NCBI RefSeq assembly: GCF_030499515.1
Contig: NZ_JASTWJ010000001.1
Location: 1,674,001-1,738,000 of the forward strand
DNA from: Streptomyces sp. DT2A-34
GTDB lineage: Bacteria > Actinomycetota > Actinomycetes > Streptomycetales > Streptomycetaceae
DNA length: 64,000 nt
Direction of reading: 5' to 3'
Part shown: positions 26,990 to 40,002 of the stretch, one piece after another
Numbering within the stretch: the stretch's first letter is position 1
How the letters are laid out: every line of letters starts with the position of its first letter
Program-made: the position numbers and the translations under genes
The notes under the pieces: model-generated
Told to the model about the DNA's origin: nothing
Database searches by the model: none
Seen by the model: the letters and a program-made list of their open reading frames with translations, nothing else

Positions 26990-27168
26990 GTGTACCGCGG
27001 GACGGCAGCGGTATGCCCTCCCGGGGCGGCGATCTCCGGCAGCCCAAGCAGGGGCAAAGCGGGCGGTGGTTGATGCTGCGGTGGCGACACCTTGGCAGAG
27101 TGACGGGTGGTGCGGCGATGATGTGCCGAGGCGGTTCTACGCCGTGGCCGTTTTCCGCCACGGGCCGG

Positions 27169-36981: not shown

Positions 36982-38475
36982 TCAGTCCGCCCTCGTGCAG
37001 TCGTGCCCGTTCAACGCGAAGTCGTAGCCCGGCGAGTTCTCGCCCTCCCACGACGCGAGGAACCCGAAGGCCAGCTCGCCGTCGGCGGGAACCGTCTTGT
37101 TGTAGTCGGCGGCCTCGGCCGTCACCCGGGAGCCGTTCTGGGCGAAGCTCGCGTCCCACATCTGGCCGACCTTCTGGCCGTCCCGGAAGGACCAGGCGAC
37201 GCGCCAGTCGTCGAGGGCCCGTTCGGTGGTGACGGTGACGGTGGCCTGGAAGCCGTCGGGCCATTCGTTGACGAGGTCGTACTCGACGCTGCAGGTCGCC
37301 GGTTCGCTCGCGGACGGGTCCGGATCGTCCTCGCCGGCCGTGGACGACGTGGTGCCCTGCGGTCCCGGCTCGGGGTTCTTCGGTCCGGGCGCGTCGTCGC
37401 CCTTCGTGCCGCTCTCCGACGGCTCCGGGGAGTTCGAGGAGGGCTTCGTGGCGGACGTGACCGGCACGGAGAAGCCGGGGTCGGCGACCGGCTGGCGGTC
37501 GGACGGGTCGCCGCCCGCGGTGCCGCCGTCGCCGGTGGAGCCGGCGGGCATCATCGACACCGCGAGGGCGAGCACGGAGACAAGTACGGCGGCGACGAGG
37601 AGGCCGTTGCGTACGACGCGCGCCTTGTGCGCACCGGAGTCCGGCGGGCCGGCGTCCGCGTCCGCCGGGTCGGGGCGTCCGGCGCCGAGGCGTACCTCGG
37701 CGGCCCGGCGGCGGCGCTCCAGATAGGCGAGGCCGCCCCAGCCGATCACACCTCCGGCGAGGGCCCCGGGCAGTCCGCCGCCGTGCAGCCGCAGACAGGC
37801 GGCGGCCTCGGCGCACTGCACACAGGTGGCGAGGTGGCGGGAGAGGTCGGCCGGGGTGTCGGCCGCGGTCGAGCGGGTGACGGCGTCGAGGAGGCGGGCG
37901 TAGCTGCGGCACTGCGCGTCCATCGGCGTGTCGAGGTGGTTGCGGTGGCAGCGGTCCCTGAACAGGCCCCGGACCTGAGCGAGTTCCTCGGAGACGGCGG
38001 CCGGGTCCAGGCCGAGCCGGCGGGCCACCACGTGCAGCGGCAGCGCCTCCACCTCGGCCAGCCACAGCAGGGCCGCGTCCGGTTCCTGCATGTCACGCAG
38101 TCCGCGCAGCGCGATCGGGCGCTGCAACGGGGGGCCGGTGAAGCGGGCGGCCTTGTCGGAGTTGAGCCACAGGCGCAGATCGGGGTCGAGCTTGTGGCCC
38201 TGCCCGCTCTCCTCCCAGGCGGCCGCCGTGGCGCGTACGGTGGTCAGCAGCAGGGGGATTCGGGGCAGGCGGGCCGGGCGGCGGCCCGCACTCCTGAAGG
38301 TCCCGGCCTCGGCCTCGCGAGCCTCGCGTATGCCGGTCGAAAACGCCTCGGTCGCCAGCTGTTTGGCGGCGGCGGAACCGGCCGTGCACAGGTCGGCGTA
38401 CGACAGCACGGCGTCCCAGCACTCGGAGAACAGCGCGGCCTCGGTGGCGTCCTGGGGGGTCGGCAGGTCGGGCAT
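36982..38475 (-). CDS. Sigma-like / anti-sigma-like / CBM2 transmembrane fusion
   Basis: A 497-residue protein starting at ATG 38475 (MPDLPTPQ), with GGAG upstream. Residues 10-110 resemble a weak sigma region 2, and 128-176 a sigma region-4-like helix-turn-helix (LWLAEVEALPLHVVARRLGLDPAAVSEEL). H214-x3-C218-x2-C221 (RHLATCVQC) is the zinc-binding anti-sigma (ZAS) motif. One membrane span lies at 289-308; a Ser/Pro/Thr-rich linker follows; and residues ~394-495 resemble a family 2 carbohydrate-binding module, with flanking C395 and C493 and aromatic residues W406, W424, W428 and W440. So the C-terminus should face outside and bind cellulose or chitin. Its function is unproven; sensing of polysaccharide is the obvious hypothesis. 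Confidence 0.82.
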   Translation of the reverse strand: MPDLPTPQDATEAALFSECWDAVLSYADLCTAGSAAAKQLATEAFSTGIREAREAEAGTFRSAGRRPARLPRIPLLLTTVRATAAAWEESGQGHKLDPDLRLWLNSDKAARFTGPPLQRPIALRGLRDMQEPDAALLWLAEVEALPLHVVARRLGLDPAAVSEELAQVRGLFRDRCHRNHLDTPMDAQCRSYARLLDAVTRSTAADTPADLSRHLATCVQCAEAAACLRLHGGGLPGALAGGVIGWGGLAYLERRRRAAEVRLGAGRPDPADADAGPPDSGAHKARVVRNGLLVAAVLVSVLALAVSMMPAGSTGDGGTAGGDPSDRQPVADPGFSVPVTSATKPSSNSPEPSESGTKGDDAPGPKNPEPGPQGTTSSTAGEDDPDPSASEPATCSVEYDLVNEWPDGFQATVTVTTERALDDWRVAWSFRDGQKVGQMWDASFAQNGSRVTAEAADYNKTVPADGELAFGFLASWEGENSPGYDFALNGHDCTRAD

Positions 38476-38664: not shown

Positions 38665-40002
38665 CTACACCGGCGTCGAATCCTCCGCCGTCGTGGAATC
38701 CTGCGCCGGCAGGCTGTCCATGAAGGAGCTCACCGAGAACACCGCGCGGCCGGGGCCGGGCGGGCCGTAGCCGGGGGGCGAGGACAGGCCGAAGTCGTCC
38801 ATCGTCTGGCGATAGGCCTGCAGCAGCCGGATGTGGTACTCCAGCGGCGCGCCCTGCGGGTTGGCCTTGCCGAGCGGGGTCGTGGGCTCGGGGCACCAGG
38901 TGGTGAAGCGGGGCGTGATGCCGTGCGACATGAAGAAGCGCAGGCCCTCCGTCGTCGACGCGATGGCCTCGTCGACGGATCCGAAGCCGAACGGCTCCGC
39001 CATCTCCACGCCCGCCACGAAGTTGGGGATGACGTTGCGGGCGCCGAAGATCTCCGCCGAGTCGAGGATGCGCTTGTGCCACTCGTCGCGGCCGACGTAA
39101 CGCTCCTTGCCCGGGCAGTACATCTTGAAGAGGTACTCGTCCCACACCTCGTAGTTGGGGTGGTAGATCTGCACGCCGTAGTCCTTGAAGCGCTGCACGT
39201 CGTCGCGCGGCAGCGCCTGGGCGACGACCTTGCCGATCCACCGGCCCGGGAAGCGCTCCTCGATGGCCTTGGCGTAGTGGCCGTAGAAGTCGGCCTCGTC
39301 ACGGCCGGCGACCGTCTTGGTGATCGCGCCGCCGGTCAGCGTGTAGGCGGTGGAGGCCTTGGCGGTGTCGTACCGGTCGATGATCTCGAGGGCCTCCAGC
39401 ACCTCCTCGACGTCCTTCACGCCCGTGTACGGGCGCCCGGCCGCCTTGTGCTGGCGCCAGTTGTGGTTGATGTCGCAGTACTGGCACTCCTCCTTGGCGC
39501 CGAAGTACTGGCAGACCCGGAAGACGGTGAGGTAGATCAGGTAGCCCCACTGGATGGTCGGGGCGACCTCCATCACCGACTTCCCGTTGGCGAGGGTGTG
39601 CCGGTAGTACTCCGGCATCGGCGGCACACCGACGTCGGCGATCCGCTTGCCGTCGAGGTAGAGCCCGAGCATGCCCTCCTCGTCGGCGGCGACCCGGTAC
39701 GGCGAGGACGGGTTCACACGCACGGAGACGACGGTGCGCCGCAGGTCGTACGGGCCGCCGGTGAGGATGATCTCCTCCGGCGGGCGGCGCAGCGCGGCCT
39801 CGCCGAGCTCGGGCAGGGTGCCGTGGTCGAAGGAGAAGATGAAGTACGACTTCGGCTTGACCTCGCCGTCCTCGTTGTCGCTGAGGGCGGACGGGTCGAA
39901 GGCCACTCCGCCCCGGAGCAGATCCTCCTTGAAGACGGCTTCCCGCGGAACGTGCGGGAATCGCTCCATCAGATCCTCGACCAGTGCGGTGCGGCTGCCC
40001 AT
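38665..40002 (-). CDS. Radical SAM protein with unusual Cys spacing
   Basis: A 445-residue protein starting at ATG 40002, with GGGAGGAG 7 nt upstream. The only cluster-type motif is VCQYFGAKEECQYCD, that is C-x8-C-x2-C, rather than the classical C-x3-C-x2-C; it lies near residue 163. Downstream (YTLTGGAIT, NFVAGVEMAEPFGFGSVDEA) has the beta/alpha pattern and glycine-rich SAM-binding strands of the fold. It probably makes a 5'-deoxyadenosyl radical, but the substrate is unknown. A D-2-hydroxyacid dehydrogenase-like gene lies upstream on the same strand with 125 bp between, and they could act together. Confidence 0.82.
   Translation of the reverse strand: MGSRTALVEDLMERFPHVPREAVFKEDLLRGGVAFDPSALSDNEDGEVKPKSYFIFSFDHGTLPELGEAALRRPPEEIILTGGPYDLRRTVVSVRVNPSSPYRVAADEEGMLGLYLDGKRIADVGVPPMPEYYRHTLANGKSVMEVAPTIQWGYLIYLTVFRVCQYFGAKEECQYCDINHNWRQHKAAGRPYTGVKDVEEVLEALEIIDRYDTAKASTAYTLTGGAITKTVAGRDEADFYGHYAKAIEERFPGRWIGKVVAQALPRDDVQRFKDYGVQIYHPNYEVWDEYLFKMYCPGKERYVGRDEWHKRILDSAEIFGARNVIPNFVAGVEMAEPFGFGSVDEAIASTTEGLRFFMSHGITPRFTTWCPEPTTPLGKANPQGAPLEYHIRLLQAYRQTMDDFGLSSPPGYGPPGPGRAVFSVSSFMDSLPAQDSTTAEDSTPV

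Follow-up and report, generated by a model that had tools for sequence, protein, structure and literature searches.

A CBM2-bearing membrane protein of Streptomyces joins a sigma-like domain without the sigma signature to a ZAS-type anti-sigma domain

Introduction

What is the role of a sigma-factor fold that is joined, in one chain, to an anti-sigma domain of its own and to a carbohydrate-binding module outside the cell? The question is raised by a gene of Streptomyces sp. DT2A-34 (GCF_030499515.1, contig NZ_JASTWJ010000001.1, 1,674,001 to 1,738,000; this whole 64-kb stretch of DNA is called the window below) whose product, P0002, ends in a family 2 carbohydrate-binding module (CBM2) and is referred to here as the CBM2 protein. 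A first-pass annotation had read it as a one-polypeptide analogue of the Clostridium SigI/RsgI systems that reports cellulose or chitin through a sigma-type switch. In SigI/RsgI, an external carbohydrate-binding module is coupled across the membrane to a sigma/anti-sigma pair, and two proteins are involved. To our knowledge, the outside sensing of insoluble polysaccharide by streptomycetes is poorly understood. The basic architecture of the CBM2 protein, namely a sigma-like segment, a ZAS-type anti-sigma domain, one membrane span, and a CBM2 domain, is present in a single chain. The sigma-type switch is not supported in the form proposed, since the sigma parts of P0002 and its CBM2 orthologues are without residues that canonical extracytoplasmic function (ECF) sigma factors and NPCBM-bearing paralogues of the same genome keep. 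We put at roughly one half the probability that the protein is a carbohydrate receptor whose pseudo-sigma is linked to an anti-sigma domain that is still live, and which signals through protein contacts and not through promoter binding.

Streptomyces sensors that unite sigma, anti-sigma, and a carbohydrate-binding ectodomain in one polypeptide have been described before as ECF52 (passages in PMC5826349 and PMC8999054), so the annotated layout is supported but is not new. In the parts of PMC5826349, PMC8999054, and PMC10766802 that deal with it, SCO4117 of S. coelicolor, the sole ECF52 member in that organism, combines a sigma factor, a zinc finger, a membrane span, a Pro-rich stretch, and a carbohydrate-binding domain, and its proteolytic release is proposed.

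Results

Residues 8−182 of the CBM2 protein carry the sigma-70 fold, with a sigma-2 and a sigma-4 domain, as judged from an AlphaFold model together with structure and profile searches. The model of the N-terminal part (predicted local distance difference test, pLDDT, 91.2; predicted template modeling score, pTM, 0.89) has its sigma-4 helices at residues 131−141, 147−154, and 161−182, where a helix-turn-helix-like (HTH) region 4 segment (about 128−176) had been annotated, and the structure search aligns residues ∼109−182 with sigma-4 domains. Nearly all of the best 50 matches listed in that search, and the first 29 Foldseek rows obtained with the N-terminal model, are sigma factors or sigma-like domains; Foldseek by itself gave no match under an E-value of 0.001 with this model. 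A search of the PDB with a profile built from 77 of the 117 family N-termini retrieved only sigma factors (20 distinct sequences with E ≤ 0.01, the best being SigE at 7.4e-13). The N-terminal half shares ancestry with the NPCBM/ECF52-like paralogues, with which hhalign aligns it over 258 columns (probability 99.9, E = 6.6e-36). The annotation of residues 1−180 as sigma-like is thus borne out in fold and ancestry, and neither of the two outcomes it had named against itself, an N-terminal part that is not sigma-like or an external domain that is not CBM2-like, was found.

The signature of a functional ECF, which comprises an Asp in region 2.2, a basic residue in region 2.4, and a basic recognition helix, is absent from the CBM2 protein. 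Regions are named after the alignment with ECFs and what is generally known of ECF sigma factors. The canonical ECFs used for comparison (n = 18, host genome) come from 30 fetched loci and match the family profile: 9 of the 30 gave no match, and 3 of the 21 candidates were then left out (L165, L166, and L190). The residue table likewise leaves out six broken, truncated, or partial family members (L054, L126, L131, L142, L148, and L150). Residue 39, in region 2.2, is Asp in 17 of the 18 canonical ECFs and in every NPCBM (33/33) and proline-rich (Pro-rich, 7/7) member, whereas it is Asp in none of the 27 CBM2 members (Gln in 18, Glu in 4, Arg in 3, His in 1, and Pro in 1), in none of the 49 members with a ricin-type lectin domain (Met in 32, Gln in 7, Leu in 6, Ile in 2, and Arg in 2), and not in the single LamG-like member (0/1), a loss that extends to 77 of 77 proteins. 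Residue 89, in region 2.4, is Lys or Arg in all ECFs (18/18) and NPCBM members (33/33) but in only 1/27 CBM2 and 3/49 ricin members; the basic residue is lost in 73 of the 77, one of which has His. The −35 recognition helix (residues 159−168) has a positive net charge in 17/18 ECFs, 33/33 NPCBM, and 7/7 Pro-rich proteins, and a negative one in 27/27 CBM2 and 36/49 ricin members. Within this helix, CBM2 members have Glu or Asp at position 163 (24/27) and Glu at position 164 (27/27), and only two of the 27 have Arg at position 167, which is Arg or Lys in 16/18 ECFs and Arg in 33/33 NPCBM proteins.

A Pfam scan of P0002 returned CBM_2 as the sole family above the cut-off and matched no sigma family, the HTH part reaching merely a subthreshold match to MarR_2 (E = 0.11). 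NCBIfam gave no sigma match in P0002 either, its sole model being an exoglucanase that is matched through its CBM part. Among 56 N-termini of the clade (23 of the 27 CBM2 and 33 of the 49 ricin members), none matches Sigma70_r2, as opposed to 33/33 NPCBM proteins. The sigma signature is lost within the clade of CBM2, ricin, and LamG-like members, unlike in canonical ECFs and NPCBM paralogues, and with its sigma part decayed this clade largely escapes sigma-factor models.

The domain that follows has been kept. By their zinc-ligand motif and helical layout, residues 187−262 are a class I/ZAS-type anti-sigma domain. The motif C189-x24-H214-x3-C218-x2-C221 occurs once in the protein; H214-x3-C218-x2-C221 had been annotated correctly, with the fourth ligand, C189, overlooked. 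All four ligands are invariant in 34/34 CBM2 orthologues and in 117/117 family N-termini, and in the NPCBM paralogues it is the zf-HC2 part that this domain aligns with. We estimated ratios of nonsynonymous to synonymous substitution rates (dN/dS) by the Nei−Gojobori method with Jukes−Cantor correction only, for the 190 pairs that 20 CBM2 orthologues form (the window plus those 19 of 27 fetched loci that passed a filter for a DLPTP start). Median values are 0.30 for sigma-2, 0.29 for sigma-4, 0.28 for ZAS, 0.11 for the post-ZAS stretch (residues 233−262), and 0.26 for the membrane span; as an internal comparison, the inner linker gives 0.79 and the outer one 1.02. The cytoplasmic unit is under purifying selection, and from its low dN/dS and invariant zinc ligands we conclude that it is not a relic.

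Nor is the architecture a product of chance, because 861 proteins match the 497-residue protein at E ≤ 0.001 (the 120 listed matches span 99−100% of the query, and the unlisted ones may partly match through CBM2 alone) and because dN/dS in the sigma-like and ZAS parts is about one-third of that in the linkers. An AGGAG lies immediately 5′ of the ATG given in Table 1, and an alternative, longer frame opens at TTG 38595; the MPDLPTP-type start is kept in the aligned orthologues and in 19 of the 27 fetched orthologue loci, some of the remaining ones beginning slightly differently. The annotated membrane span (289−308) coincides nearly with the best 19-residue hydropathy window (291−309, mean 2.58; windows starting outside 270−312 reach at most 1.28). 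K284, R286, and R289 flank it on the inner side, and by the positive-inside rule the N-terminus should lie inside. The domain bounded by C395 and C493 is CBM2-like, as annotated: residues 395−493 match Pfam CBM_2 above the cut-off (E = 4e-25) and have the CBM2 fold, and W405, W440, and Y458 align with the W/W/W of the cellulose-binding C. fimi CBM2 and the W/W/Y of EngD. From this aromatic face we infer that the ectodomain binds cellulose or chitin.

Table 1. Features of the CBM2 gene and its upstream neighbor (positions in the window)
Feature	Position	Strand	Remarks
CBM2 gene (protein P0002)	36982..38475	(-)	ATG 38475, stop ending 36982, 497 aa; sigma-like/ZAS/membrane span/CBM2
Sigma-2-like domain, residues 8-94	38194..38454	(-)	lacks the canonical Asp of region 2.2 (residue 39) and Arg/Lys of region 2.4 (residue 89)
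Sigma-4-like domain, residues 109-182	37930..38151	(-)	acidic "recognition helix" (E163, E164)
ZAS-type anti-sigma domain, residues 187-262	37690..37917	(-)	ligands C189, H214, C218, C221; 233-262 the most conserved stretch
Single membrane span, residues 291-309	37549..37605	(-)	hydropathy
Linker, residues 311-392, predicted extracellular	37300..37545	(-)	dN/dS ~1.0, pLDDT mostly <50
CBM2, residues 395-493	36997..37293	(-)	C395/C493 (putative disulphide), aromatic face W405, W440, Y458
Radical-SAM-family gene (NCBIfam variant_rSAM)	38665..40002	(-)	directly upstream of CBM2 gene, same strand

The host genome contains six paralogues of the cytoplasmic unit, four with a ricin-type lectin domain, one NPCBM, and one Pro-rich, the latter two with Sigma70_r2 and zf-HC2 above the cut-off. 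By domain order, the NPCBM paralogue looks like the counterpart of SCO4117, and the Pro-rich one may belong to a group such as ECF53 or ECF48. A partial family member (L126), which matches in the sigma-like part only, lies at 27166−30515 of host contig 2 (155 kb). Two ricin-type matches stand ∼11−22 kb apart in the host (C1, 344−363 kb) and in several other Streptomyces genomes, a spacing that looks like conserved linkage. Local profiles assign the ectodomains of 122 extracted members to ricin (49), NPCBM (34), and CBM2 (27), with 12 unclassed, one of which is LamG-like by eye only; these class counts are not frequencies because the members were chosen from search hits.

We built a tree of the 117 family N-termini and the 18 canonical host ECFs by a quick method, with Shimodaira−Hasegawa-like approximate likelihood ratio (SH-aLRT) support only, a midpoint root, and long branches flagged. 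The ricin, CBM2, and LamG-like members form one clade (support 99), within which CBM2 is monophyletic (100), and the Pro-rich and NPCBM proteins form separate clades of their own (99 each). The CBM2 protein falls outside the NPCBM/ECF52-like clade, which is equated with the group of SCO4117 by domain order and not by a search with SCO4117.

Of 81 Streptomyces genomes, 28, among them the host, have a CBM2 orthologue, taken as matches to both ends; in one of the 28 (G003) a stop lies inside the C-terminal piece. The N-terminal profile matches all of 41 Streptomyces genomes, some of these matches being ordinary ECFs. In a set of 60 genomes from the class, to which Streptomyces contributes four, 22 are matched at E ≤ 1e-12. 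Outside the genus, a near full-length chassis was found in 12 genomes (L195−L206), with the four zinc ligands in 12/12; by eye, these mostly carry other long ectodomains or none that is recognizable. Genomes with the CBM2 gene have more other CBM2 domains (median 9.5 vs 3.0), which goes in the direction of the co-conservation with glycosidases that the annotation had proposed to look for, but the link is weak because these genomes are also larger.

Ten orthologue loci were compared solely for the window's own neighboring genes. The radical-SAM gene adjoins the CBM2 gene in nine of them at 92−97% identity (the tenth has a partial 62% match), and its product is better conserved than the CBM2 protein across those loci. 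On the other side, a CHAT-domain protein of 1192 residues (33387−36965, plus strand) is convergent with the CBM2 gene and matches nothing in the 10 orthologue loci. Secreted glycosidases elsewhere in the window had been taken to fit a polysaccharide sensor. Ten window genes near the CBM2 gene and further out were scanned, and a GH43 and a GH2 are among them, but no glycosidase is directly adjacent.

Some ricin subclades do have sigma genes as neighbors. In the subclade of L024 and L227−L230, a sigma gene lies directly upstream on the same strand in 5/5 loci; the one beside L024 in the host is of group-3 type, with sigma regions 2, 3, and 4. A STAS-like gene, identified by eye, lies beyond it. 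In the subclade of L023 and L211−L217, an ECF-like gene is found on the opposite strand within ∼1.7 kb in 5/8 loci. A third subclade has only distant sigma genes, in 2/5 loci, and a fourth has none in 6/6. These neighbor genes hint at a partner in trans.

Discussion

Several known systems resemble the CBM2 protein. ECF52, as passages on SCO4117 describe it, likewise has sigma-2 and sigma-4, a zinc finger, a membrane span, a low-complexity linker, and a carbohydrate-binding domain in one chain, and with it the CBM2 protein shares the zinc-finger anti-sigma domain, the span, and the long external carbohydrate-binding extension. It differs in having CBM2 in place of NPCBM, in belonging to a separate clade outside the NPCBM/ECF52-like one, and in having lost the sigma signature, so that no recognizable ECF sigma domain is left. 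ECF53 and ECF48 are presented in part of PMC8999054 as predicted fused sigma/zinc-finger/membrane proteins of Actinobacteria; the Pro-rich clade stands apart from the CBM2 clade. IutY of Pseudomonas putida (ECF243), in the same source, also has a sigma factor and a membrane anti-sigma in one chain, but its family and signal are different, and it yields a working sigma after proteolysis (passage in PMC8999054). Where SigI/RsgI takes two genes, a single gene here encodes a ZAS domain and a degenerate sigma. Sigma-I6/I7 are named in a passage of PMC10766802.

The loss of signature residues, while the ZAS ligands and post-ZAS helices are fixed, leads us to favor the pseudo-sigma receptor at the near-even odds given above. 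The protein would be a membrane receptor with a single span that has taken over the chassis of fused sigma/anti-sigma proteins of the ECF52 type. Outside, the CBM2 on its flexible linker would bind cellulose or chitin; inside, the sigma-2/sigma-4 fold is predicted to be held by its own ZAS domain in a compact unit. Some of the conserved residues by which canonical ECF sigmas hold RNA polymerase and read promoters are gone from the sigma part of the ricin/CBM2/LamG-like clade. Once polysaccharide is bound, proteolysis or a pull on the membrane span might loosen this lock, and a sigma or anti-sigma partner elsewhere in the cell could then reach the anti-sigma domain or the surface of the pseudo-sigma. 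Output would thus be by protein contacts, and the CBM2 protein would not itself direct RNA polymerase. In ECF/anti-sigma pairs, according to a passage in PMC7406223, helix 1 of the anti-sigma contacts sigma-4 at its DNA-binding region, and helix 4 contacts the part of sigma-2 that binds RNA polymerase. A sigma retained for such a lock alone could lose the residues that contact DNA, as is observed here.

A number of observations weigh against this receptor, among them the retention of E43, F45, R81, and R169 in the CBM2 members (counts below). The 18 canonical ECFs are a set selected by match to the family profile. Residue 89 is Lys or Arg in just 1/7 Pro-rich proteins (6/7 are without a basic residue), a clade that is still sigma by Pfam (one member tested), and the NPCBM clade deviates from the canon at residues 163−164; because of these two deviations, single residues are not decisive, and divergent ECFs may function with unusual residues. 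The recognition helix is neutral in 12/49 ricin members, positive in 1/49, and +1 in the LamG-like member. Sigma70_r4_2 is matched at E ≤ 0.01 by 5/56 CBM2 and ricin N-termini (vs 28/33 NPCBM), and 4 of the 12 proteins from outside the genus (L201, L202, L205, and L206) show a separate, partial decay of the sigma signature. As for the anti-sigma domain, zf-HC2 is matched by 0/56 of the same N-termini, and among the listed structural matches, which cover mainly residues 8−183, no solved anti-sigma was matched to the ZAS domain. Saturation of silent sites affects the dN/dS values, among which the median of 0.62 for CBM2 indicates weak constraint. Finally, a search for further sigma genes in the neighborhood of the CBM2 gene, which did not extend to anti-sigma genes, found none in any of 11 regions (the 64-kb window plus ten loci, each of ∼20 kb), so that no partner can be named.

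The best-surviving alternative, which we nonetheless hold to be unlikely, is a conventional one-component sigma of the ECF52 kind, in which cellulose binding would lead to proteolysis, and the sigma domain set free would be active and direct the expression of polysaccharide genes. The domain order is that of ECF52/SCO4117, and in a strain with truncated SCO4117 the expression of SCO4117 was activated, with proteolytic release discussed (passage in PMC5826349). The sigma part is strongly conserved, and E43, F45, and R81 are kept in 27/27 CBM2 members and R169 in 26/27. Against such a working sigma, D39 is lost and the recognition helix is acidic in all 27 of these proteins, whereas the NPCBM and Pro-rich paralogues keep both D39 and R167 in 40/40; the absence of Pfam and NCBIfam sigma matches from P0002, and of Sigma70_r2 from the scanned clade members, points the same way.

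PhyR of alphaproteobacteria is driven by a response-regulator domain and is not known to have a ZAS domain, membrane span, or CBM. As far as the passages on it go, it has a sigma fold but does not work as a sigma factor, as is proposed here for the CBM2 protein. A mimic of this type, whose freed pseudo-sigma would bind the anti-sigma of another ECF and so activate that ECF indirectly, is improbable here: the pseudo-sigma is covalently joined to its own ZAS domain, PhyR matches are no better than those to true sigmas, and no partner is known. Least credible of all is a surface adhesin whose CBM2 just ties hyphae to cellulose or chitin above a vestigial cytoplasmic anchor, for although the aromatic face is intact and genomes with the gene have more CBM2 domains, constraint is stronger on the cytoplasmic part (dN/dS 0.11−0.30) than on CBM2, and the zinc ligands are invariant throughout the family.

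Conclusion

The pseudo-sigma receptor can be extended, tentatively, from one protein to a family. Streptomyces may possess membrane glycan receptors of an unrecognized class, with an ECF sigma that has become a pseudo-sigma "lid" over the zinc anti-sigma domain of the same chain. A single conserved cytoplasmic unit would be joined to lectin ectodomains (ricin, CBM2, or LamG-like) that are interchangeable, and glycan binding would switch the anti-sigma on or off toward real sigma factors in trans. We found no description of a pseudo-sigma lectin clade in the open-access literature searched. If the proposal is correct, these proteins would be new candidate receptors for cellulose, chitin, and other glycans, and would offer a case of a sigma factor turned regulatory pseudoprotein that can be compared with the characterized ECF52 control. 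The logic familiar from pseudoenzymes would then apply to sigma factors.
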